From the NCBI GenBank assembly GCA_950295325.1, contig OX485805.1, forward strand, positions 7,564,501 to 7,628,500: DNA of 64,000 bases. The letters are read 5' to 3'. Numbering within the stretch: position 1 is the stretch's first letter; each line of letters opens with the position of its first letter. Below the pieces are notes generated by a model, which searched no databases, was not told where the DNA came from, and saw nothing but the letters and a program-made list of their open reading frames with translations. Positions 27,527 to 62,834 of the stretch are shown piece after piece. Source of the stretch: Polytrichum commune (lineage: Eukaryota; Streptophyta; Polytrichopsida; Polytrichales; Polytrichaceae). A program made the translations under genes and the position numbers.

Positions 27527-27535
27527 AGCCTAACA
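27527..27535. repeat. MULE target duplication, left copy
   Basis: AGCCTAACA is repeated exactly at 39207-39215. Nine base pairs is the characteristic Mutator duplication length. Confidence 0.95.
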
Positions 27536-28056
27536 CCCTAACATTACCGGACCCAATAGTCTTTATTGAGTTTAGGAAATCGAGGCCCTGCAGTCGGGTG
27601 GCAAAAGGGGCCACAGTACCAGCAGCCACTGACGACGAAAGCCTCCTTGCACGGGAAGGGTCCCCTTTCTCTCCCGGCCTGCGCCCGCCAGCACCGCCAC
27701 CGTGGCTGCCACGCGGCCTGCCCTGCTGGCCACACTTTGAACGGAACGGGGCCGTCCCACCTCCCGAGGTTACGGTCTACCCTAGCAGCTACCAGGACCG
27801 CATGACCCCATGGCGGCATCATGCCATTGGGGCGGATGGATCATCATGAGATCCATCATCCACATCCATGACCCACATCCATCGATGGGTGGGATGCCGG
27901 CCGTCCTCGGGGAGTGCGCGGCCCATACTCTTTCAAAAACTCCATTCTGCCACTCCCCTTGTTTCTTTGTAACCTGCTCCTCCTTCCACAGACTGCCCGG
28001 ATTTCTGCCGCGATGGAGCCTGTTGCGATTCGAGTGGGGCCTGATGCGACTGATGC
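27536..28056 (+). repeat. MULE terminal inverted repeat, left
   Basis: It begins CCCTAACATTACCGG and ends inside the 21 bp repeat region (ACTGATGC). It matches the reverse complement of 38686-39206 over all 521 bp without gaps, with about six substitutions. It is GC-rich compared with the surrounding DNA. The proposed transposase start codon at 28013 lies inside it, so, as in other MULEs, the promoter is probably in the TIR. Confidence 0.95.
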
Positions 28057-28150
28057 GATTCAAGTGGAGGTTGATGCGATTCATGAGGAGCCTGATGCGA
28101 TTCAAGTGGAGGCTGATGCGATTCAAGTGCAGCCTTATGCGATCCAAGCG
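28013..28150 (+). repeat. 21 bp minisatellite straddling the TIR boundary
   Basis: Units of about 21 bp (consensus GATGCGATTCAAGTGGA plus four bases) repeat about six times. If translated from the ATG at 28013 they give the heptad DAIQVEx, for example DAIQVEADAIQVQP. The TIR homology stops within this array at 28056. The array is probably the first coding exon of the transposase or a subterminal binding array. Confidence 0.7.
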
Positions 28151-28159
28151 CCACTCCAA

Positions 28160-28714
28160 GTGGGAACAATCACCCTTGCTGACTGCATTTTCCCATCATC
28201 TCTTGAGATCTACACTCGACTAGGTTTTTTGTTTGATAGAGACCTGCTTTAACTACGCAGTCCACATTTATGTTGTATTTGACTGTCACTCATGAAGTGA
28301 AGTGAAGCGACTATGACAATGATGTGCTGATGCTCTACATGCAAGATCCTCTCATAATGATTGCCGTGCTATGAATGTACTTCCTTCCTCGTTGTTGTAG
28401 TCAGTGCACTCATGTTACACATCACATAATTGCAATCCCCAACTTTCATTTGTGCATTAGGTTGATTGAAATGCTGACCACGAGCATGATGACGCGGATG
28501 TCCTTGTAACTTCCTGTGATTTGTGCGCGGTAGTGCGCGGTACTGCAAACCCCAAACCCCTAAGCCGCGAAACACAACCGCCGATCTGGGGGTTCATTCA
28601 CCATAGTGCCGGGAAGGGGTTGGGTTTGCGAGGCATTTCCACTTGTTTTCTGGATGTTGTACTTGCAGTTGTAGGGCCTAAAGGGGAACCTTTGTAACTG
28701 GTGCCGTTGTGCAG
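28160..28714 (+). other. MULE subterminal region / proposed intron 1
   Basis: Non-coding. It contains a 27 bp block (28406-28432) repeated in inverted orientation at 38383-38409, with an exact CATGTTACA at 28411-28419. Partial motifs TGTAAC occur near 28505 and 28692. The acceptor is TTGTGCAG at 28707-28714. Confidence 0.55.
28406..28432 (+). repeat. subterminal inverted repeat, left arm
   Basis: GCACTCATGTTACACATC plus CACATAATTG pairs with 38383-38409 at 26 of 27 positions. It lies 350 bp inside the left TIR and includes one copy of the CATGTTACA motif. Weak similarity extends on either side. Confidence 0.8.
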
Positions 28715-31508
28715 TCCCATATTGAAGGGCACAACAAACTTGACGTTCTCGTGCATGGAGAGCCTGCCTCGGAACCAACACTTCGCCCACCGCAACACAT
28801 AGAGCCTTCGTACGAGTCTGTGTACCAGGAGGTACAGAAGGCAGAGTTACACCGGATCTGCACTTTAGTCCAAACTCCCAACATAGGCACTTTCACGCAT
28901 ACAGATCTTACGTGGGCATGCCATGTGCGGGTGAAAGGGAGGAGGGCCTCTCCCAGAACGCTTGCTCCAGTGTCGGTTGCGTACATACCTTGGGCAAGAG
29001 TGGAGGATTTTTTAAAAGGTGAGGAGGCACGCAGTGATGCTCCCTCCAAATTTGTCTGCCAGGGTACTCCGACAAACGAAAAGGGGAAACTGATGTTCCC
29101 TCAGTGGAACAGCTACTCTGCCATCTTCAGGTACGTTTGTAACATGCACCCAAACTTCGATTGTGCATGTTCCAATGTTACACTGTTTTGCCACCTTTCT
29201 TCCCTGCTATATATGACTCTCACCGTAACCACCTACTGTGGTCCCCATCCCACAGGTATCATTGTCAATATGGACCAAATGACAATGCATCGTACATACC
29301 AGTGGTTACAAATGACATGTACCAGAAGAAAAGAAAGCTTGACGCGAAGGGCAAATACGTTCCAAATGGAAAGGGGCACACAGGTCCACGGACATCCGCA
29401 AGGATGCGAGGATCGGGGCAGCGAAGGGGATGCCAGTGTGGATTGTCGTCAAGCGATTGTACCTACAGCCTGTAGTGGCATAAATAACATACCATCAGAT
29501 GAACCATGTGAACCTGAAGGGGTTTTTCTGCCATGGTGCCACAAAGACTGGGCATAAGAGCAGATTCTCAAGCCATCTGTCGCCACATGTTCGTGAATTC
29601 ATCATGAGCCATTTGCGGCTAGGATTGTCTATCCCACAAATAATGGACAAACACATGAAACGTTTCATGGAGGTGTGCGAGAGAGGCGAAGAGCTCACCC
29701 GGGATCTCTTCATTTCTGAGCAAGACATCCGTAACATTGCTGGCCGCCTTGCGATTGAAACCTACAAACGCGACAACAATGATGCAAAATTTGTGCGCAT
29801 GTGGGTGCAGGAACATCCTTTTCTTGTGTTCTACTATAAAGAATCAGGTGTGCACGTTCATGGGGCTATCACACGGAAGAATATTCCCTTCACAATAGGG
29901 ATCCAAACATCTTGGCAACAAGATATGAGGCTGAAGCACGGGCACAAAAAAACCGTCTCCATTGACGCCACGTTTGCAACTAATGAGAATAAGGTTTGTG
30001 CCCATAACATTTCTCACAACAGCATGTTACAGACCACTTCTCCCAAATGTTTGGCCACAAACATAATTCTTTGTTGTATGTATTCTTGCAGTTTCCATTG
30101 TACACCTTGATGGTCTTTGATGACTGGCTGAATGGAGTGCCGGTGGCGTACATTACCACTTCTAGTTCCAAGCAACCCGATCTTAAACCTTGGATGAAGG
30201 CGCTTGCAAGAAAATTGTGCTCGGTGCAGGGAGATTGGATGCCGAATGCCTTCATAACAGATTGTGCGCAGGCTGAGATTGGGGGCTTGCAGAGTGTATG
30301 GCCCAGCGTGAAAGTATTCCTCTGCTTGTGGCATGTCCGAAGTGCATGGCTGAAACAAGCGGTAGCAAAAATAAAAGATCATGCCATTAGGGCTGCTGTG
30401 TTAAAGGGGTTGGGGCGTATTATGTATGACACTAAGTGTCCACAAAGAGATGAAATGGGGCCTTGGGCTATCCGGCAGTTGAATGCTCTTATGGAGTGCT
30501 TCCCTGTTGTGAGCAATTTTTGGGCTTACTTCAACAAACAATGGGCAGACAAAACGCATATGTGGGTTGTGGGGCATCGTAACCTGCCATATGCGGGCCA
30601 GGATACAAATGCAGCTATTGAAAGCTACCATTCAAACCTTAAGGCTACCTTGCGTGCATCAAAAGGTAGAGCGCATGGACAGCGCTTGGACTGGGTGATA
30701 TACGAGTTGACAGGGGAGATTCTCTCCCACTACTGGTACCAAGCAATGAAAAAACAACACGGCTTTGTCCCCAACTTAAAACATGAGCAATTTGTTATAA
30801 ATGCAGTGCTGAAAGCGAGAGAAATTCCTGATAGTTGTGTCACTCTCTCCATTGCAGATGACGGTCCAGCTTTGGTAACGTCAAAGAACAACCCGTCTAA
30901 ACTATATTATGTGTACAGCCCAGACTGCGAGTGGGGTTGTTGCGATTGCGTCTGGGCACTAAAGGGGAACATATCTAAACATCAAATAAAGGTGCTCATG
31001 ATACTCCATCCTAGCCTTGCAGAAGGAACAATTACACGTTACTGTGGATCCCTTGCAGGCACAACTGAGGGAGGTCGTGGTAACATGCTCGATCCCGTTG
31101 TTCATTTTCCAGAGGATTGTGCTGACACCGGGCCACTGTGCCTTACCCCTACGCTATGCCGTCCTAGAGGTAGCCAAATTGTCACACAATCTGGGGAGGA
31201 CATGGAAAACCAAGCGCGTAACCTCGCAGAGGAGTTCATGGACGTTGCCATTGGTGATAGATTTTTGTTGCAACATCTTGTGGCCGACCTGCACGTCGTT
31301 CGTGGGAAACAACAAACGTTGTTGGCTCAAATTAAGCATGGATTGGTGGAGCCATCCCAAGCAGATGTGCACTTTCGGCCCAACGAAGACGGCAACAACA
31401 TGTCCCTGAAACGTAGAAGAGACTTCCTGGACCGCAGATAGGTCACGTCATTCAAACGTCCTGTAACGTGCGACTGCTGCATGGGCGTCCCCATGTTACA
31501 ACCCTTCC

Positions 31509-31541
31509 CACGTGCAGGTGGACGTGGCTGCGCATATAAAG
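31509..31541 (+). promoter_or_regulatory. G-box and TATA box of the small MULE ORF
   Basis: CACGTG at 31509-31514 is a plant G-box. CATATAAAG at 31533-31541 is a plausible TATA box. They lie just downstream of the transposase stop and about 130-160 bp before the ATG at 31672. Further ACGT cores (CACGTCA, AACGTG) sit at 31443-31470. Confidence 0.5.
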
Positions 31542-31671
31542 TCCGGACCCTTGACACACTTCCACATTTTCAGCCTTTCTTCCGCCGGTCCTGTGTAGTG
31601 GTCGGCAACTGAGTGCTCCAGCGGCTCCCGTGTTCTACCCAAGGTGCCTTTGTGCATTTCCTCCCCTTGTC

Positions 31672-31881
31672 ATGGCACCTACTCACGTCACACGAGTCAG
31701 CACAGCGGTTTGGAAGTGGTTTTGCAGGTGTCCGGAGGTCATTGGACCCATTTATGACACTTCCTCCGATGAAGACTTCTTCACCCCGCCAACATCTCCT
31801 CCGCCCTCTTCCGAAGACCAAAGTGCGGAAGTAACGACGGGATCCCCCACAACGTTCTGCTCCCCAACACATGGCGCGTAG
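31672..31881 (+). CDS. small acidic/proline-rich ORF within the MULE, unknown function
   Basis: A 69-codon ORF starts at an ATG in good context (TCATGGC). The protein begins MAPTHVTRVSTAVWKW. Its second half is rich in S, D, E, P and T (YDTSSDEDFFTPPTSPPP). No domain is recognised. The reasons to take it seriously are the upstream TATA box and G-box, a GC-rich codon bias like the transposase, and its place between two convergent genes where no other promoter is needed. It could instead be a 3' exon of a longer transcript or a chance ORF. Confidence 0.35.
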   Translation: MAPTHVTRVSTAVWKWFCRCPEVIGPIYDTSSDEDFFTPPTSPPPSSEDQSAEVTTGSPTTFCSPTHGA

Positions 31882-32611
31882 ACGCTGCTCTCACCATCGC
31901 AGACAGGACGCCTCCGCCGGCGTCATGCTCAAGCTGTTCGCCAGCTCACAGCCCCGCCCCCGAATGTCGCACCCAACCCACAAGGTCCACTGAAGGCATA
32001 CCAACGTCCTCTGAAGGTATATAGGCCTAGTTGGGCGCCATAGTGCAACGCGCTAGGTAGTTGTCGTGAACATTGTGATACTTTGTGAAAAGGGATTTCC
32101 GCCTTTGTATTATCTGGCATTTTTGGGGCATTTCTACAGTGTGGGGTCCTTGTAACATGTTCAACATGATACGCAGTAACACATGTACAATTTGGCCAGT
32201 CATGTTACATGTATTCCTAGCAATGTTACAACAACATTCTTTCGCATTGTCATTGCAGAATCGAAGTAGCCTATAGACACATTGCAATGAACCCACATGT
32301 GGATTGATGTTGGTAAGCCCATCATATCAGTCTTGCATTACATTACCTACAACAAACCCTAAGTCCTTCACAGAAATTTATAGCAGTCACTCAAAAGCAG
32401 AATAATTGACCGTATGTAACTATGTGAATCAAAAGCAGCCAATGTTATAGATGTTACACATTGTACACATGATCCTTGGGTGCGAATGGCTTGGGAAGGC
32501 TTAGGTAGTCACTAATACTAACCCTGGTTTTCTATTCTATCCCCACCCTAACACTGTTGAAGATTAAATCCTCGTCGTCAACTATTCATGTCTTGTTGTT
32601 GTAACATGACC
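31882..32611. other. intergenic region between convergent MULE genes, motif cluster
   Basis: Non-coding. It holds the densest cluster of the 9-mer TGTAACATG or CATGTTACA: exact copies at 32151-32159, 32201-32209 and 32600-32608 (one more at 31492-31500), and one-mismatch copies at 32222-32230 and 32450-32458. The 3' ends of both flanking genes should lie here. No clear AATAAA was assigned. Confidence 0.7.
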
Positions 32612-33746
32612 CTAATTTGACACGTTCGTGGTTGTGGTCGGTGGGTCTGTCTCCCTTTCTGATTGCTGTTGTGTGGCGTGTACGACGGCCTCGTGTGCAA
32701 TTTGCGAAACCTCAACAAACGCGCTCTCCTCCGGGTCTTTCGGCGCCACGGCCATAGCTGTAGGTGCTGCAGGTGTGCCCTTAGGAGACACTGAGACTTG
32801 CCAGTCAAAATCCAATTGACTCGGCAACTCTTCTAGGGTCTTGTCTTGAGTCATTGGTATGTGGAATGTTGGCCCGACTGTCGTGGCCAAATTGCCAACG
32901 CTTTCAGGAACTGGCTGGTGCACGTCAACGCGATCCTCGCATTCGCCCCCGTTCTGTCCTGGTGGCTGCACCTCTGAGTGCTCGCACCTCTCTCTGGCAA
33001 TATTGTCTGCCATGTTGCGGATCTCGTACATGGACTCGCTACGCTCCACTGGAGGAACCATCATATCTGGAAAACATGTCACACATTAGTATGCTTCGTC
33101 GTAACAACATTGGAAGGGATGTCCAAAGACAAAAATCATGTAACATATGCAAGCGCCAAAATTTACCTGGGTTTGCAAATATGTAACCAATATCCAGGTC
33201 CTCTTGATACTGAAGCCAATGATCGTAACGTGCGAGGGGTGTCGAGGAGCCAGGGGGCCGATCCTTTATCACCCAAGCCTCCAACCACGTTCGCCGCTCG
33301 TGAAATGCCATGTCGCGGACAGCCCTGAAACGAGTTGAGTTACACCACAAGTGCAACTCTGCCCACCATTCAGGTGTGCCATTTAGTAAGTCTTCAAAAG
33401 CATCATTCACTTCATCAAGCCACTGGTCGTGTGAATCCACGGGCCTGGCGCCTGCGAACACGAGGAATCCTTCTTCTTTGAGGTAGGCGGTTGCCAGGTG
33501 CCACGCACTCAAACCATCTCCAACCACTTCTTCCGCGAGCTTCGACCATTCCGCCACATTGGCAGGAGTACATCCAGTGTCAGGGTGTGATACTAACGGG
33601 GGCGATACCCTATGAAATTTAAGGAAACAACGTTGTCGGGTAGAGAGGGTTCCGCCTTGGGAAAGCGCTGGGCTTCTGGCTGCAACTAGATTTTATCAGA
33701 CCCGTCGAATCTTCTGATCTTCAATCGAATCTTCCGGTCTTCTAGT

Positions 33747-33800
33747 CTTCAATTTCTTCAATTTCTTCAATTTCTTCAATTTCTTCAATTTCTTCAATTT
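33747..33800. repeat. 9 bp satellite, six units
   Basis: CTTCAATTT is repeated six times perfectly. It is a simple repeat, not a CRISPR-type array. Confidence 0.95.
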
Positions 33801-34003
33801 CTTCTAATCTTCAACCTCTTTCCCGTCGACCTATCCTGTTGTGGCTCTATATGGATAAAGGGTAAGGGTAGTGTGATAAGAAACCACGGCTTCGGACGGG
33901 TAAAACGGGACGTCAGAACACGAGCTGACGTCCGAAAGATTGGTTCCTAAACTTTCAAACCCACGGTGACCAGCAATCGCGCCTCACCAGTGGGAACAAC
34001 AGA

Positions 34004-34081
34004 AAACAACCTTGTGGGTGATTAATCCCACTTCGTTGTCACAAACAACCTTGTGGGTGATTAATCCCACTTCGTTGTCAC
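34004..34081. repeat. 39 bp direct duplication
   Basis: Two identical tandem 39 bp units, each containing CTTGTGGGTGATTAATCCCA, which itself includes the inverted pair TGGGTGATTAATCCCA. Confidence 0.9.
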
Positions 34082-34556
34082 ACAGGAAACAAATTACGAT
34101 GCAGAAATGAAATGCAACTAGCCTCCAAAACCGGCTTGGAATCACACACACAAGAAAAAGACAACGTGCCACAAGCAACCACACATTCGAGTCTTGAAGC
34201 CTTCAATTCTTTAATCTGTCCGTCTTCTATGGTCGGTCGAAGTCTCAGCTCTTCTTTTAAGAACCAACAGACTTCCCTCCACTCAAACAAGCACAAATCT
34301 TGATTGCTAACTTCCAAAACAACAAGTGAGATCTCTCATGAATCACAAATCCCTCGTATTTTATTTCATATTCTTCTCAAAAACAACTCACACCGTGAGC
34401 TTCGAATCCACTTCTCTCTCTCTCCACAACTTCTCTCCCTCAATAATCACATAACATCTTTCCTTCACCACCTCTCCCTATCCATGCGAGAGACAAAGTT
34501 CTCTCTTATCCTCATCACATGGCTTCTAATCACCCATTGGTCCAAAGTAACTCAAG

Positions 34557-34745
34557 ATAACTAAAAGACAAAAATAAACTATGAGTAAATAAAAAGGTAA
34601 TCTATTTCTATCATTTGGTAAAGGTAACTAAAAGTAACTATGAGTAAACATAAAGGTAAGCAACTTCTATCCACTTCTATCTTTAGGTAATGATAACTAA
34701 AATAAACTATGAGTAAATAAAAAAAGTAATCTACTTCTATTCTTT
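34557..34745. repeat. three ~63 bp tandem units
   Basis: Each unit holds AACTATGAGTAAA, then a GTAATC or GTAAGC word, then ACTTCTAT-like ends. The units are about 85-90% alike by eye. Confidence 0.75.
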
Positions 34746-34783
34746 ATTATTTTTCTCCAAGACCAAGATTCACAATGCAATAT

Positions 34784-34818
34784 TAAATACGTACACATCT
34801 ATATAGTGTACGTATTTA
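34784..34818. repeat. palindrome at the edge of the insert
   Basis: TAAATACGTACAC and GTGTACGTATTTA are perfect 13 bp inverted arms around a 9 base loop. The proposed splice donor of the second MULE gene (GTAAATACG on the minus strand) lies inside it. Confidence 0.85.
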
Positions 34819-36961
34819 CATCACGACAACGTAGGAGGAGGACTGACCAAGGCACTGGATAGACTCGTTCAACATGGCATTGTTCCATGAGCAAAGAATG
34901 CACCTCCGCACCTTCAACTAGAGAGTGATGCAAAGGGTAGGGGGGTCTGAAGTCGACACAGAGAGGATTAGCTACAAAGGAAGAGTAGAACGGATGCCAA
35001 CCCCAAGTCGCCTGCAGCAAACGTGGGTAGTGTTGATCATCCCACTCCTTCATTGCCACAGCAATGGCCTCCTTTACCTAAGTATGCCGGTCCTCCTCCC
35101 ATTGTTTCCGTTGTTTCTTCACCTCTCGCATGACCAGAATGTGCTCGACATACTTGAGAAGAGCATCGATCTCAGTTGCCACCGCTGTTGGGTCATGGAC
35201 CTTGCTAACAACGTTCACAACACTCTGAGTGATGAGGGGGCCCACATCTGGTCTGGCCTGCATCACCCTCAGCCAGCACATGTTACAAAGACATACTCTC
35301 CCTAAGCACATGTTCCATTGACAAAATGCTGAACCATGCCGGCTGCGGAGAATGTGTACATCACATAATGGTGACCTGATTGCATGTTACGAACTTAATC
35401 AAAGATTAGCCACCAACAAAAAGAATGCATGGGTGCAAGGGGGAATAGGTTGTACCTGATGAGAAGGAGAGTAGAATCTACCATAGGCTGCTCACAATCT
35501 GTCCATGAAAGACGGATCGTTCTGCCAGTTGTGAAGCACCTCCTAAAATGCCTGCAACTCACCGCACTCCAAGTCGAATTGCAGCAAACCACAGGCCATC
35601 AAATAATACAAACCTGGGGGTTGAATTGGGGCCCTCAATTGTGGCTTCGGGATGTCCATCTTCACGCCCGAACGCGCCGCACTTGCAGCTTTCACATAGA
35701 ATTGTTGTCGATCCTTCCGTAACGCCTGCGCCACATCCTCTGAACCTGTGGAAGTTTGCATAGGAGAAACAGGTGCCCTAGAGGAACCACCCGCAGCATG
35801 TGGAGCAGGAGTAGGTGGGGGCAAAATGGCAACCCTCTCCGGGGAGGGGCTGCGGGTTTGGATATGCGTAACATGGATGGGTTGGGGAGGCGGTCGCCGG
35901 GGTACACCTTCGGCAGATTGTTTCGTATGTTGGGCCTTGAACTGGCGGCTTGAGTGAAAAACTCGGTGGCCCCCGGCCATCTCCGCGTGTGAGCGTTTCT
36001 TCGGATGTCGGCTGGGCGGCGCTTCAAATTCATCGTCTCCATCATCATCAAGGTCAACATAGGCAACTGCGGCGGGAGATGCAGTGTGTTGCCTGGAGGG
36101 GCGTTGCGGTTTCGGCTTCATTTGTGGCTGCGGATCTCCAGCAGGGGGCAGACTGGCTGTCAAAATCTCCAGCGTGGGCAGCATGAATTGCCGTTGTTGC
36201 ACTCTGACTCCAGGGGGAGGGTAAGTGACGTCCCTCAACTCCGGGTTTAGGTCTAACCAAATTGAATTGTTCTGCAAGGTGCCCCATACAGCTCCATCGC
36301 CACGCTGCAAGGCAAGTTTGAGGTCCTTGCCTTGTTTCGCAGTCTTCAGATTCGGGTAGACGGGTAGCTCCAACCTCAATCCATTCGAGTCCACAGGTCC
36401 CCGAGGGCAGCCACTCACACGGTGATCTGTCAACCGCAGCTTGCTAGGAAAGGAGCCTTTGCAATACACACATAACGAGTCATCTCTGGCCTTCTGCCCA
36501 TCCCTAGACCGGTTACGAGTAAACTCTAATTTTAATTCAATGTACACTCGTCTCCTCACGCGCTGCGCTACCCAACCAGCAACATCCCTATTGACATAGT
36601 ATGTAACGTGGTCGTCTTCATGCAGGGGTGGTCTTCTTTCAGATTCCATTTTCTGCACAGAACAATGTAAGTCAATGGCAAGAAACAAGGCAGCTTCAGG
36701 TGCCAGCATCAATGGTGGGCAGTGGATGTCTGCTACGGAGGCTGTGTGTACCAACGTGCGGGGCTCGGAGTACTTGCTACCTATGGGAGAGAACTCGCCT
36801 ACGGCCATGGCGAGCAAGGTGCGCAACAGAGTGCAGCAGACCCTAACCCCTAAATAATTTAGAGAGGACAGTGCAATGCCTCCAGGGAAAACAACAACCA
36901 AAACAGAGAGAGGAGCCCTAAGCATGCACCCTAAATGCCACAGGAAAGAATTGCCATGGAT

Positions 36962-38180
36962 AGTGACATACAACTACAAACCCCAACACATCCAACCCGG
37001 GCATGCTTGAGAACTCCCTATACCCTAAACCCAAAGGAGAGGAAGGCGGAAGGAGGTGCTGGGTGAATCTACAGTGAACAAAAAAAAAACAAGTACAACC
37101 GGGAATACATACAACTACAAACCCAACACATTCAACCAGGGCATGCATCTAAAGTGCTTATACCCTAAACCAAAGGAAGAGGAGGGCGGAAGGAGGTGCT
37201 GGGTGAATCTGCACTGAACTCCCCCAAAAACAAGTACAACCGGGGCGCCCCTGAAAACACAGCGCCGCTAACACAGAAGAAGGGGAATGCTCGAAAAAAC
37301 TGCCGGGAATACTACAACTAACCCTCCAACACATTCAACTATGGCGTGCATCTAAACCCCATAAACCCTAAACCAAAAGGAGAGGAAGGCGGAAGGAGGT
37401 GCTGGGTGAATCTACAGTGAACTAACAAAAACAAGTACAACCGGGGCGCCCCTGAAAACACAGTGCCGCTGCAACAGAAGAAGGGGATTGCAGGAAAAAA
37501 CTGCCGGGAATACATACACCCCCAAACCTAACACATTCAACCAGGGCGTGCATCTAAACTGCTTATACCCTAAACCCTAAACTAACCCTCCAACACATTC
37601 ACCGTAAACCATGCATCTGAACTCTTAATACCCTAAACCAAAAGGACAGGATGGCGTAAAGAAGTGCTGCGACAATCTACGATGAAGTTCCAAAAAAAAC
37701 CCGTACGACCGGGGCGCCCCTAAAACACCACGCTGCCACAGAAGAAGGGGATCAAGGAAACAAGCACCGGGAATAGACATGGGAAACGCAGATATGTTCG
37801 AAAGCGAAGTATGCGCAGGCACAGAAAGAGAGGGTAGCGCAAAAAAATGGCGAGAAGACAAAGACTGAACTAGAAAAGACATAGAGAAAGCCTATGCGTG
37901 CACGGGAAACGCCATGTGCGCATCGAAAGAAGAAGAGCATGAACGAAGGAAAAACATATGAAAATCTCGAAGAAAAACAAATAAACCAGGGGCATGCATG
38001 AAATCGCAATATGTGCCGCTACAGTAGAAAAGGATGCAGCTTCTAGGTGCCTGCAAAAAATGGAAAAGAAAGACAACAGAGACACAGAAGGCTTGATGAT
38101 GCATGAAAACGCCGCATACACGGACACAGAAGATGCAGATGGAGGGGTACAATGCAGGAAAAACTTACAAAAAGGTCTCA
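36962..38180. repeat. ~200 bp tandem array upstream of the second MULE gene
   Basis: Diverged units start near 36962, 37103, 37308 and 37509, with a fifth decayed one after 37773. Each contains ACACATTCAACC, a telo-box-like ACCCTAAAC, GGCGGAAGGAGGTGCTGGG, GTACAACCGGGGCGCCCCT and AGAAGAAGGGG. Lengths vary from about 140 to 265 bp through internal deletion or duplication. It is GC-richer than flanking host DNA. As it lies 5' of the minus-strand gene, it may act as an enhancer or binding array. Confidence 0.8.
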
Positions 38181-38382
38181 CATGTTACAACTGCAAGCAC
38201 TCCTTGGATAGCGTACGCCTCTTGTAACCACCTTTATGTGCACCTTCTGCTCGTGCGACGTTGAACATACTGCGGTGAAATGTCAGCTCTCCCTGCTTTT
38301 CGTCGCACTTCACAAATACACACACACACACAACGAGGAGGACCTCAATGACCCTTATGCGCCAATCAGGAGTTCATGAATC

Positions 38383-38409
38383 CAATTATGTGATGTGTAA
38401 CATCAGTGC
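38383..38409 (-). repeat. subterminal inverted repeat, right arm
   Basis: CAATTATGTGATGTGTAAC plus ATCAGTGC is the inverted partner of 28406-28432 (26 of 27 identical). It lies about 280 bp inside the right TIR. Confidence 0.8.
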
Positions 38410-38685
38410 ATTATTAGAAAACACAAGGACCAGGTACATTTGCTACATAGTCTTCCTGATGACTCGATCTTCCTTGTCACTGTCTAGCACATCATCGTTG
38501 CATGCTATCACCTCAAGGAAAACACTCTAGTGCGCCACAAATCTACCCTATACAACACATGAGTAGGTTACAATGAAGCCTACATGATGGCTGATTGGAG
38601 GTTTGAAAAAAGGGTGAATTCATTCAACTCACCTTCGGTCTAACAATTGTTTTCGAAGACAAGCGCTCCACGCTGCGATCTCCCT

Positions 38686-39206
38686 GCATCAGTCGCATCA
38701 GGCCCCACTCGAATCGCAACAGGCTCCATCGCGGCAGTAATCGGGGCAGTCTGTGGAAGGAGGAGCAGGTTACAAAGAAACAAGGGGAGTGGCAGAATGG
38801 AGTTTTTGAAAGAGTATGGGCCGCGCACTCCCCGAGGACGGCCGGCATCCCACCCATCGATGGATGTGGGTCATGGATGTGGATGATGGATCTCATGATG
38901 ATCCATCCGCCCCAATGGCATGATGCCGCCATGGGGTCATGCGGTCCTGGTAGCTGCTAGGGTAGACCGTAACCTCGGGAGGTGGGACGGCCCCGTTCCG
39001 TTCAAAGTGTGGCCAGCAGGGCAGGCCGCGTGGCAGCCACGGTGGCGGTGCTGGCGGGCGCAGGCCGGGAGAGAAAGGGGACCCTTCCCGTGCAAGGAGG
39101 CTTTCGTCGTCAGTGGCTGCTAGTACTGTGGCCCCTTCTGCCACCCGACTACAGGGCCTCAATTTCCTAAACTCAATAAAGACTATTGGGTCCGGTAATG
39201 TTAGGG
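38686..39206 (-). repeat. MULE terminal inverted repeat, right
   Basis: It ends GGTAATGTTAGGG and is the inverted partner of 27536-28056. Visible differences from the left TIR are four transitions near the outer end (within the outer 100 bp) and two transversions near the inner end. Confidence 0.95.
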
Positions 39207-39215
39207 AGCCTAACA
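39207..39215. repeat. MULE target duplication, right copy
   Basis: AGCCTAACA, identical to 27527-27535. Confidence 0.95.
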
Positions 39216-60513: not shown

Positions 60514-62834
60514 ATGCCAGGTCTTCGGAACGCGGCAGGAGGCATCAGGTCGTACGCCAGCTTCGCACCATACTTCCCGACCACCACCACAACTACCACT
60601 GCGGACATGCACATCCCCGCTCCTCCCCCGCCACAACAATCATGGGAGAATCTGGTGCCTTCCTCCCATAACAATTACTTCCACCGGCCCTCCAGCCAGC
60701 AGCGATCGGTGCACCGGCCGCTGCAGTGGTGGCATCACCAGCAGCAGAGTCGGCGAGAGGATTTGAGGTCCAATTTCCTGGGGACTAATCCCAATACCAT
60801 CAACAACACCAACCACAATATCAACAACATCAACAACAATACCAACAACATCAACAACCAGCATCATCAGCAGCAGCCACGGCACCCATTGATCTCGCAT
60901 GGAAGCAATGACAGCGACGACTTGCAAGCCATGGTGCACGATTTCATCGAAAATGATTCCGTGGACTACATGGATGGTGCAGACAGCGATGGAGCCCCGC
61001 CAAGTTTGAAGCTAACTGACAATCTTCAGGTAGCCTAGATAGCTTTGCCTAACCCAAGCCTAACCCACCAACCCATTCATTGCAAGTTTCTATGGAATCA
61101 CTACCCACACATACAGGATGGTTTGGAGCTTATTTTGGGTAAAATAAGCGTCGAATTTGGTTTGAGGCGTCCGATGGGTTAAGGATTCTTGATGTGGTGG
61201 CGATAGGACTTGCCTGGGGTTAGTTAGCCAATCTTTCTTGGTGTTGTATTGTGCTTCAATCCCCTCTTGAAGCTTAACTAACAATCTTCCCACCAACCCT
61301 TTGCAAGTAAGTGTCTCCGAGCTTGTTTCTGGAAGCTCTACCGACACATCATCATCGAATGCCTTGGAGATCATTTGGGGTGTGTGGAATCATCTTTTGA
61401 AAATTTGACAGTGTAGGTAAAGGTTTCTTGAAATGGCCAATCTTTATTTTATTGACCTTAGGACAATTTTGTATGTTGTGTTGTTGTGCCACTTATAGAT
61501 GCTCACCACTCCCTACGGTGCGCTGGAGCGAGAGCTTCATACGGATGTGAGACTCCTGCTGCTCACCATCAACGAAGACACTGACCTAATTTGTGACCCG
61601 GAGGGATCCGATTGCAAGGGCGGATGCACCAAGCGCTTCCTGGTCAAGCACCTCAAGGTGGCTGGCTACAGCGCCTCCGTTTGCAAATCCAAATGGGTCA
61701 GCGCCGGCCGAGTCCCTGGAGGTGCAAAATCCATCCCCATTCTCTTCCATTCGCCCATGCGCAGATTGCTGCAGTTCCAAAGTGCAGTAATCCATTGCCG
61801 AAGTTGTGGCCTGAGAGTCATGATGATGATGATATTTGAGGGTTAAGTGTCCATATTCCGGTTGCGACTGATTGATATGGGTTAGGCAGAGTTGTGGGTG
61901 ATTTGTCAATCAAATCGATTGTCATGTGTAAGGGCTGATGGATTAAGATTGATGTAGATAAGACATTGTTCCTGACTGTTTTGGTGTTTGTAAGATGCTA
62001 ATGGGGGGTTGTCTTTATCAATTCGCAGCAGAGTGTCAGTCCATTACCAAGTTGTGGCATTAGAGTCATCATGATAATGTTTTGTGGGTTATGTATCCAT
62101 TTCTGTTGCTTGACCAATTGTTATGGGTTAAGCAGAGTTGTGGGTGGGTTGTCAAATGGTTGTACATCGAATGGATTGGTTTGGATTACCATCTCCGAGG
62201 GATGTACGTTTTGATGGAGTATTAAAGTTATCAAAGATGAGGACACTGCGAGTCCTGTTTTTTTGGAGTTGTAAGTTGTTTTTAATGTTGTGATGCTGTT
62301 TGTCAATTTGCAGGAGAGTATGAGTACATCGACGTGATGTTCAACGGAGGGCAGGCGGCAGAGCGGATGATTGTGGACGTCGACTTCCGAGCGCAATTTG
62401 AGATTGCAAGACCCACTCCGAATTATGAGGCGGCGCTCAAGGCGCTCCCTACTGTATTTGTGGGCACGCCCACGAAGCTTCGGAACATCCTGGAGCTCAT
62501 GTCCGAGGCTGCGAAATCCTCTTTGAAGCAGAACGATATGTACCTGCCGCCATGGCGCACGCTTGACTACATGAGCGCCAAGTGGCTCTCCAATTTCGAG
62601 CGCAAAACCAACCCGGTCGCGATCATGGGCGCACCAATTTTCAAAGGCCCATGCAGCTTACACCGGCGAGACAAGAGATCTGCCTCCGCGGTCGTGCCAA
62701 TTATTGAGGCCAAGCACTGCGGCGACCAACTCCGGCGCACCAAAGTTTCCCTCATTGCAGAAGTGAAAGGGTTAGGCGCCCTTCCCCGAGGGCGAAGCTC
62801 TCGCGCCAACCTCCTGCTCCGAACTGCCCTCTAA
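60514..62834 (+). CDS. DUF506 family protein (PDDEXK-like, PF04720 type)
   Basis: Three exons: 60514-61029, 61499-61721 and 62314-62834. The introns are GT-AG (phase 0, then phase 1) and give 419 residues, in the usual DUF506 size range. The start is the first ATG in frame (A at -3). Residues 1-136 are low complexity: a T run (23-29), a P run, and an N/Q/H-rich stretch (92-121). The conserved blocks are DDLQAMVHDFIEND (about 136-148), the exon 2 stretch GALERELHTDVRLLL to VAGYSASVCKSKW, and in exon 3 YEYIDVMF, ERMIVDVDFRAQFEIARPT, LPTVFVG and PPWRTLDYMSAKWLSNFER. DUF506 proteins share a PDDEXK nuclease-like fold whose catalysis is unproven; some Arabidopsis members act in root-hair control and calcium signalling. 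The exact role here is unknown. The arginine- and serine-rich tail after the KTNP motif is variable in the family. Confidence 0.93.

Follow-up and report, generated by a model that had tools for sequence, protein, structure and literature searches.

The stretch of Polytrichum commune DNA analysed here (64,000 nt of contig OX485805.1, positions 7,564,501 to 7,628,500 of the forward strand; henceforth the window) carries at 27536..39206 a Mutator-like element (MULE; no strand assigned), whose non-coding DNA contains many copies of a nine-base motif, TGTAACATG. Inverted ends and a 9-bp target-site duplication, as expected of a MULE, are both present. The terminal inverted repeats (TIRs; left, 27536..28056, plus strand; right, 38686..39206, minus strand) are 521 nt long each and differ from one another by six mismatches, and the identical 9-bp sequence AGCCTAACA flanks both element ends (27527-27535 and 39207-39215). 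Two genes lie between the TIRs, a transposase gene on the plus strand and a second gene (gene 2) on the minus strand, in convergent order, with their 3' ends facing each other.

The two genes of the element

The transposase gene (28700..31441, plus strand) is a broken copy that was recognized through a Pfam match, its relatives and its open reading frames. The MULE transposase domain PF10551 was found with an E-value of 1.1e-6 and 29.5 bits (cut-off 27.6). Three exons were inferred (~28700-29131, 29257-29993 and 30095-31441); as with gene 2, the model was built from open frames and homology. The exon 3-4 join matches an annotated Ceratodon protein. The gene is damaged by a frame disturbance and a stop near 29473-29483. 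Among its 78 matches, 43 are 78-90% identical and stem from metagenome sources; the two named matches come from the moss Ceratodon purpureus (52% identity over 44% of the query) and the liverwort Riccia sorocarpa (33% over 74%), a pattern that by itself points to a probable bryophyte host.

Gene 2 (32612..36808, minus strand), delimited by a conserved start at 36808 and an end at 32612, is likewise a broken copy. Its inferred exons are 36808-35456, 35257-33167 and 33066-32612; it carries at least two in-frame stops, and its second exon is interrupted by a 1.2-kb insert (33634..34828, no strand assigned; TGTCG...CGACA flanked by ACGT) that holds no copy of the motif. Relatives continue without this insert, which is probably a solo long terminal repeat; its AT-rich sequence includes a tandem duplication of 39 nt as well as a (TCTTCAATT)n array. 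The first exon encodes a finger-like C2HC pattern whose residues C113, C116, H129 and C134 are invariant across 57 sequences of the gene 2 family. The two genes probably travel together, because four contig sizes of at least 5 kb are common to the relatives of the transposase and those of gene 2, as compared with 0.11 expected.

The genes of the maize element MuDR (mudrA, mudrB) are convergent, and the MuDR-type arrangement, in which long TIRs enclose two convergent genes, is also present here. Passages in PMC8224964 and PMC6446971 describe MuDR as likewise possessing long TIRs, a 9-bp target-site duplication, and a transposase gene accompanied by a second gene.

The motif within the window

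In the window, TGTAACATG occurs in ten exact copies, of which nine are located within the element and a single one (at 2012) in the other 52 kb. The initial annotation had listed just these ten, and the ten one-mismatch copies that it named were recovered as well. Three exact copies lie in introns: at 29138..29146 (plus strand) in transposase intron 29132-29256, at 30023..30031 (minus strand) in transposase intron 29994-30094 at a distance of 30 nt from the donor, and at 35279..35287 (minus strand) in gene 2 intron 1 (35455-35258). With the gene models used here, the earlier assignment of one exact copy to each of these introns holds; a proposed first transposase intron, to which the copy at 28411 had been assigned, did not find confirmation. 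The six exact copies beyond these three supported introns are found in the left subterminal DNA (28411..28419, minus strand), between the two genes (31492..31500, minus strand; 32151..32159, plus strand; 32201..32209, minus strand), directly beyond the gene 2 end (32600..32608, plus strand), and in the right subterminal DNA (38181..38189, minus strand). The element middle is the densest stretch, with 4/9 exact copies in 31492-32608.

Variants accompany the exact copies. TGTAACATT is present in transposase intron 29132-29256 (29174..29182, minus strand) and between the genes (32222..32230, minus strand), TGTAACATC between the genes (32450..32458, minus strand) and in the right subterminal DNA (38396..38404, plus strand), TGTAACATA in gene 2 intron 2 (33139..33147, plus strand), and the C-type motif CGTAACATG in gene 2 intron 1 (35383..35391, minus strand). 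The intron at 33166-33067, for which a one-mismatch copy had been claimed, does hold near-copies (33075, 33137, 33139). Altogether, 17 one-mismatch copies were counted within the element and 26 outside.

The exact copies exceed chance by far, as previously asserted: the numbers expected were 0.13 in the element core, 0.07 in the non-coding part of the element (1000 shuffles, maximum 2), and 1.24 window-wide (100 shuffles, largest 4). When the non-coding part was shuffled 300 times, every 9-mer stayed at four copies or fewer. When the over-represented words of the element core are ranked against a first-order expectation, a word of the motif comes out on top at each length from k = 5 to 10.

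The sites also avoid coding DNA. With 28057-28699 treated as non-coding, TGTAACAT is found 14 times (five plus-strand and nine minus-strand copies) in 4,214 nt of non-coding element DNA, not at all in 5,220 nt of inferred coding DNA, and three times in the remaining 52,329 nt of the window (Fisher tests: non-coding versus coding, 1.3e-5; non-coding versus outside, 9.1e-14). The corresponding figures for the seven-base core GTAACAT are 15, 3 and 10. The claim that the exact copies are all outside coding exons stands, as none is located in an inferred exon; of the 18 core copies in the element, three (29731, 31080 and 35868) lie within inferred coding exons.

Could the copies have arisen by chance, or be the debris of one duplicated longer unit? 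Two pairs do lie in longer similar stretches, namely 28411/38396 in a 40-nt inverted repeat and 35279/38181 in a 25-nt match (76%). The shuffles speak against this explanation, as do the flanks of the 18 core copies, which show no agreement as a set, and the fact that the introns of relatives independently yielded this core (see below); we regard it as next to negligible. The 40-nt inverted repeat itself (28405-28444 and 38371-38410; 85%) carries one motif copy per arm and is surrounded by diverged subterminal DNA. It is perhaps a remnant of longer TIRs.

The earlier statement that the motif saturates the non-coding parts of the element went too far. No exact copy is present in either TIR, each of which offers only the one-mismatch site TGTAACCTG (at 27968 in the left and 38766 in the right TIR), and none was found in the 1.4 kb at 36809-38180. 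The latter region includes, upstream of gene 2, a block of diverged tandem repeats (36966-37690; units of ~140-203 nt) with telomere-like CCCTAAA words, which is motif-free.

This distribution has a bearing on which protein might recognize the sites. The maize element Spm, a member of another superfamily, carries repeated short binding sites in its subterminal regions. In contrast to such end-confined sites, exact copies of the motif studied here also occur in the element middle (31492-32608) and in introns. The transposase itself may bind the sites, either for transposition or for a transposase-driven activation comparable to that by MURA and TnpA, both of which are reported in passages of PMC10398659 to lower the methylation of their own elements. 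The same passages tie TnpA of Spm, likewise an element-encoded protein, to activation and demethylation, a role of the kind proposed below, and they place the effect of MURA on methylation at the TIRs of MuDR, whereas the exact motif lies outside the TIRs here. The near-site in each TIR would suit a transposase as the reader; yet we consider the transposase quite unlikely in this role, because exact copies are absent from the TIRs, where it would be expected to bind, and 4/9 of them are clustered in the element middle.

Alternatively, a host transcription or chromatin factor might bind the sites, the element having collected them as an enhancer or insulator, in which case gene 2 would serve some other purpose, for instance integration. 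A short motif spread over introns, element middle and subterminal DNA would also be expected of enhancer or insulator sites, and maize mudrB is described in passages of PMC8224964 and PMC6446971 as needed for integration. Against a host factor stands the lack of motif enrichment in the other 52 kb, where the single exact copy compares with the 1.24 expected for the whole window, although for a factor with few host targets this is hardly informative. On balance, we judge the involvement of a host factor to be unlikely.

Several further features of the region were recorded. An open frame at the left margin of the element contains 21-nt tandem repeats (GATGCGATTCAAGTGGAGGCT-like; 28020-28148), which lie partly within the left TIR. 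A small intergenic open frame of 69 amino acids (MAPTHVTRVS...; 31672-31881, plus strand), preceded by a TATA-like stretch at ~31532, is a possible third gene. The ratio of observed to expected CpG is 0.65-0.69 in the element as compared with 0.48 in its flanks, which fits a young insertion and also a past low level of methylation. Beyond the element, the window contains a segment of a PDDEXK_6-family host gene (62286-62831, plus strand; PF04720, E 4.3e-42).

The motif in the introns of relatives

The relatives of both genes were examined at the protein level. In many of the metagenome proteins, the open frame extends into introns, which we scanned as peptides. The transposase intron contributed 15 pieces, gene 2 intron 1 contributed 67 and gene 2 intron 2 contributed 27; together with two leader pieces, these add up to 2,487 residues, with P0077 and P0010 left out. 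In translation, TGTAACATG appears as Cys-Asn-Met or Val-Thr-Cys/Trp, and its reverse as His-Val-Thr or Met-Leu-His/Gln, among others; such peptides determine the underlying bases only partly.

Motif-compatible peptides are strongly enriched in these introns, with 24 as compared with 2.67 in 300 shuffles (largest 7), and the excess recurs in each of them (6 versus 0.39 in the transposase intron, 15 versus 1.85 in gene 2 intron 1, and 3 versus 0.35 in intron 2). These counts are not independent events, as some sites in different relatives represent one ancestral site. Among 5,040 letter permutations of the motif, the motif itself ranked third, and both higher-ranking ones contain GTAACAT. Scans that were blind to the motif arrived at the same core: GTAACAT came first of 8,192 seven-mers (65 versus 14.8), GTAACATG was the top word among 32,896 eight-mers (40 versus 6.3; ranks 3, 1 and 3 in the three separate introns), and the top six of 131,072 nine-mers all contain GTAACAT, with TGTAACATG in fifth place. 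In the exon parts of the same relatives' proteins (43,091 residues), 42 matches were found as compared with 16.4 in shuffles (maximum 26), a rate one tenth of that in the introns; their contexts are varied, and some are exon peptides conserved among homologues. In a distant transposase clade, no match was seen within only 210 residues.

The peptides also speak to the base that precedes the core. The top tripeptide is Arg-Asn-Met, which is compatible with CGTAACATG and occurs in seven pieces (0.09 expected). In the sense reading, these seven Arg-Asn-Met stand beside three Cys-Asn-Met, with neither Ser-Asn-Met nor Gly-Asn-Met, which suggests C or T as the pre-core base; the antisense reading gives a more mixed picture (8 T-type, 3 C-type, 2 G-type and 3 A-type). 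The family motif is probably YGTAACATG. Pieces compatible with it number 10/15 for the transposase intron, 9/67 for gene 2 intron 1 and 6/27 for intron 2, or 10/13, 9/40 and 3/12 when only pieces of at least 15 residues are considered. In the transposase intron that corresponds to 29994-30094, each of the five relatives whose frame continues from the upstream exon into the intron (P0007, P0024, P0039, P0060, P0063) shows a compatible site at a distance of 30-31 nt from the donor, as against 30 nt in the window. These peptide data support the view that the motif has been kept in relatives in three introns.

In the introns of P0016, P0020, P0028, P0030 and P0225, Arg-Asn-Met-Phe/Leu peptides suggest the extended word GTAACATGTT, one half of the palindrome GTAACATGTTAC; GTAACATGTT is found 14 times in the relatives' introns (0.81 expected), and in the window this extension does not occur generally. 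Judging from this half-palindrome, the motif might be read by a dimer.

Since both genes carry motif sites in their introns, a signal at the RNA level, such as a splicing enhancer or a branch site, must also be considered, and the sense orientation indeed prevails in gene 2 intron 1 of the relatives (12 sense, and 4 antisense that do not surpass shuffling; shuffle maxima 4 and 4). In intron 2 of gene 2, the counts of three in either orientation are both inside the shuffle maxima (3 and 4). The transposase intron contradicts such a signal: five sense and seven antisense sites were counted in the relatives (shuffle maxima 2 and 2), and the exact copies in two transposase introns of the window point in opposite directions. 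As six exact copies of the window lie beyond the three supported introns, an RNA-level role is very improbable.

A possible anti-silencing system

As the best-supported reading, we suggest that the gene 2 protein binds the YGTAACATG sites and thereby keeps the element unsilenced or reverses its silencing, a proposal that we consider just as apt to prove wrong as right. YGTAACATG would serve as a dispersed address that distinguishes the element's own family from the rest of the genome; the gene 2 protein would bind it via the conserved N-terminal domain with its C2HC zinc-finger-like pattern, at sites spread over introns, element middle and subterminal DNA; and binding would prevent or reverse silencing, so that both genes could be expressed. 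Because gene 2 is broken here, this copy could respond only to the protein of an intact relative. What points to gene 2 as the putative reader is the finger-like pattern, the occurrence of the motif in the introns of both genes, and the precedent of the Arabidopsis VANC proteins; for the presumed anti-silencing outcome, it is this precedent.

Motif-directed anti-silencing across a whole element is described for the Arabidopsis VANDAL elements. As reported in passages of PMC5735166, VANC21 binds YAGTATTAY in the non-coding DNA of its own element VANDAL21, and VANC proteins, which contain DUF1985 and DUF287, recognize motifs in same-orientation tandem arrays, with both binding and demethylation shown. 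VANDAL21/VANC21 and VANDAL6/VANC6 are described there as MULEs that, like the element studied here, possess an additional gene and a short motif in many copies, which are distributed over introns as well as intergenic and terminal non-coding DNA. The motifs of the two systems are alike in length and in their contrast with the surroundings, ours being rare in the rest of the window, which the count covers, and YAGTATTAY and YGTAACATG each have a variable C/T position.

Three differences weigh against a direct analogy with VANC. The motif is dispersed in both orientations here, in contrast to the same-orientation tandem arrays of VANC targets; the tandem repeats that this element does possess lack it; and the gene 2 family yielded neither DUF1985 nor DUF287, which were missing among the 12 and 11 Pfam families listed at E-values of 1 or below when 57 and 38 members, respectively, were searched. 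The large gene 2 family yielded no significant Pfam match, and zf-C2H2_4 was matched weakly in 20/57 members. A distant kinship of the gene 2 protein with the VANC proteins may nevertheless exist. The VANDAL elements have degenerate TIRs, whereas those of this element (521 bp) are nearly identical. By the tested features, the element is not a VANC system.

Hence, the idea of self-recognition and anti-silencing advanced in the initial annotation retains a non-random, non-coding motif that is kept in relatives' introns, a TIR-bearing MULE and a C2HC family, and it loses the straight VANC analogy. Findings that had been named as potential counter-evidence turned out otherwise, in that relatives with gene 2 do carry the motif, which is rare in the other 52 kb and depleted in exons. 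We see the proposed system as VANC-like in its putative mechanism and distinct in the tested features. With somewhat less than even confidence, we further propose that a VANC-like strategy evolved outside the VANDAL lineage, in an apparently unrelated C2HC family of a TIR-bearing MULE of a bryophyte-like host, with dispersed YGTAACATG sites.

The motif yields direct predictions for binding and methylation. If our proposal is correct, another motif/protein pair would become available for locus-specific epigenome work, and the system would bear on a proposal, found in a passage of PMC10398659, that links such systems with degenerate TIRs. There would then have been more than one origin of sequence-specific self anti-silencing, and self-addressing would be a recurrent escape route of transposable elements instead of the oddity of a single lineage.

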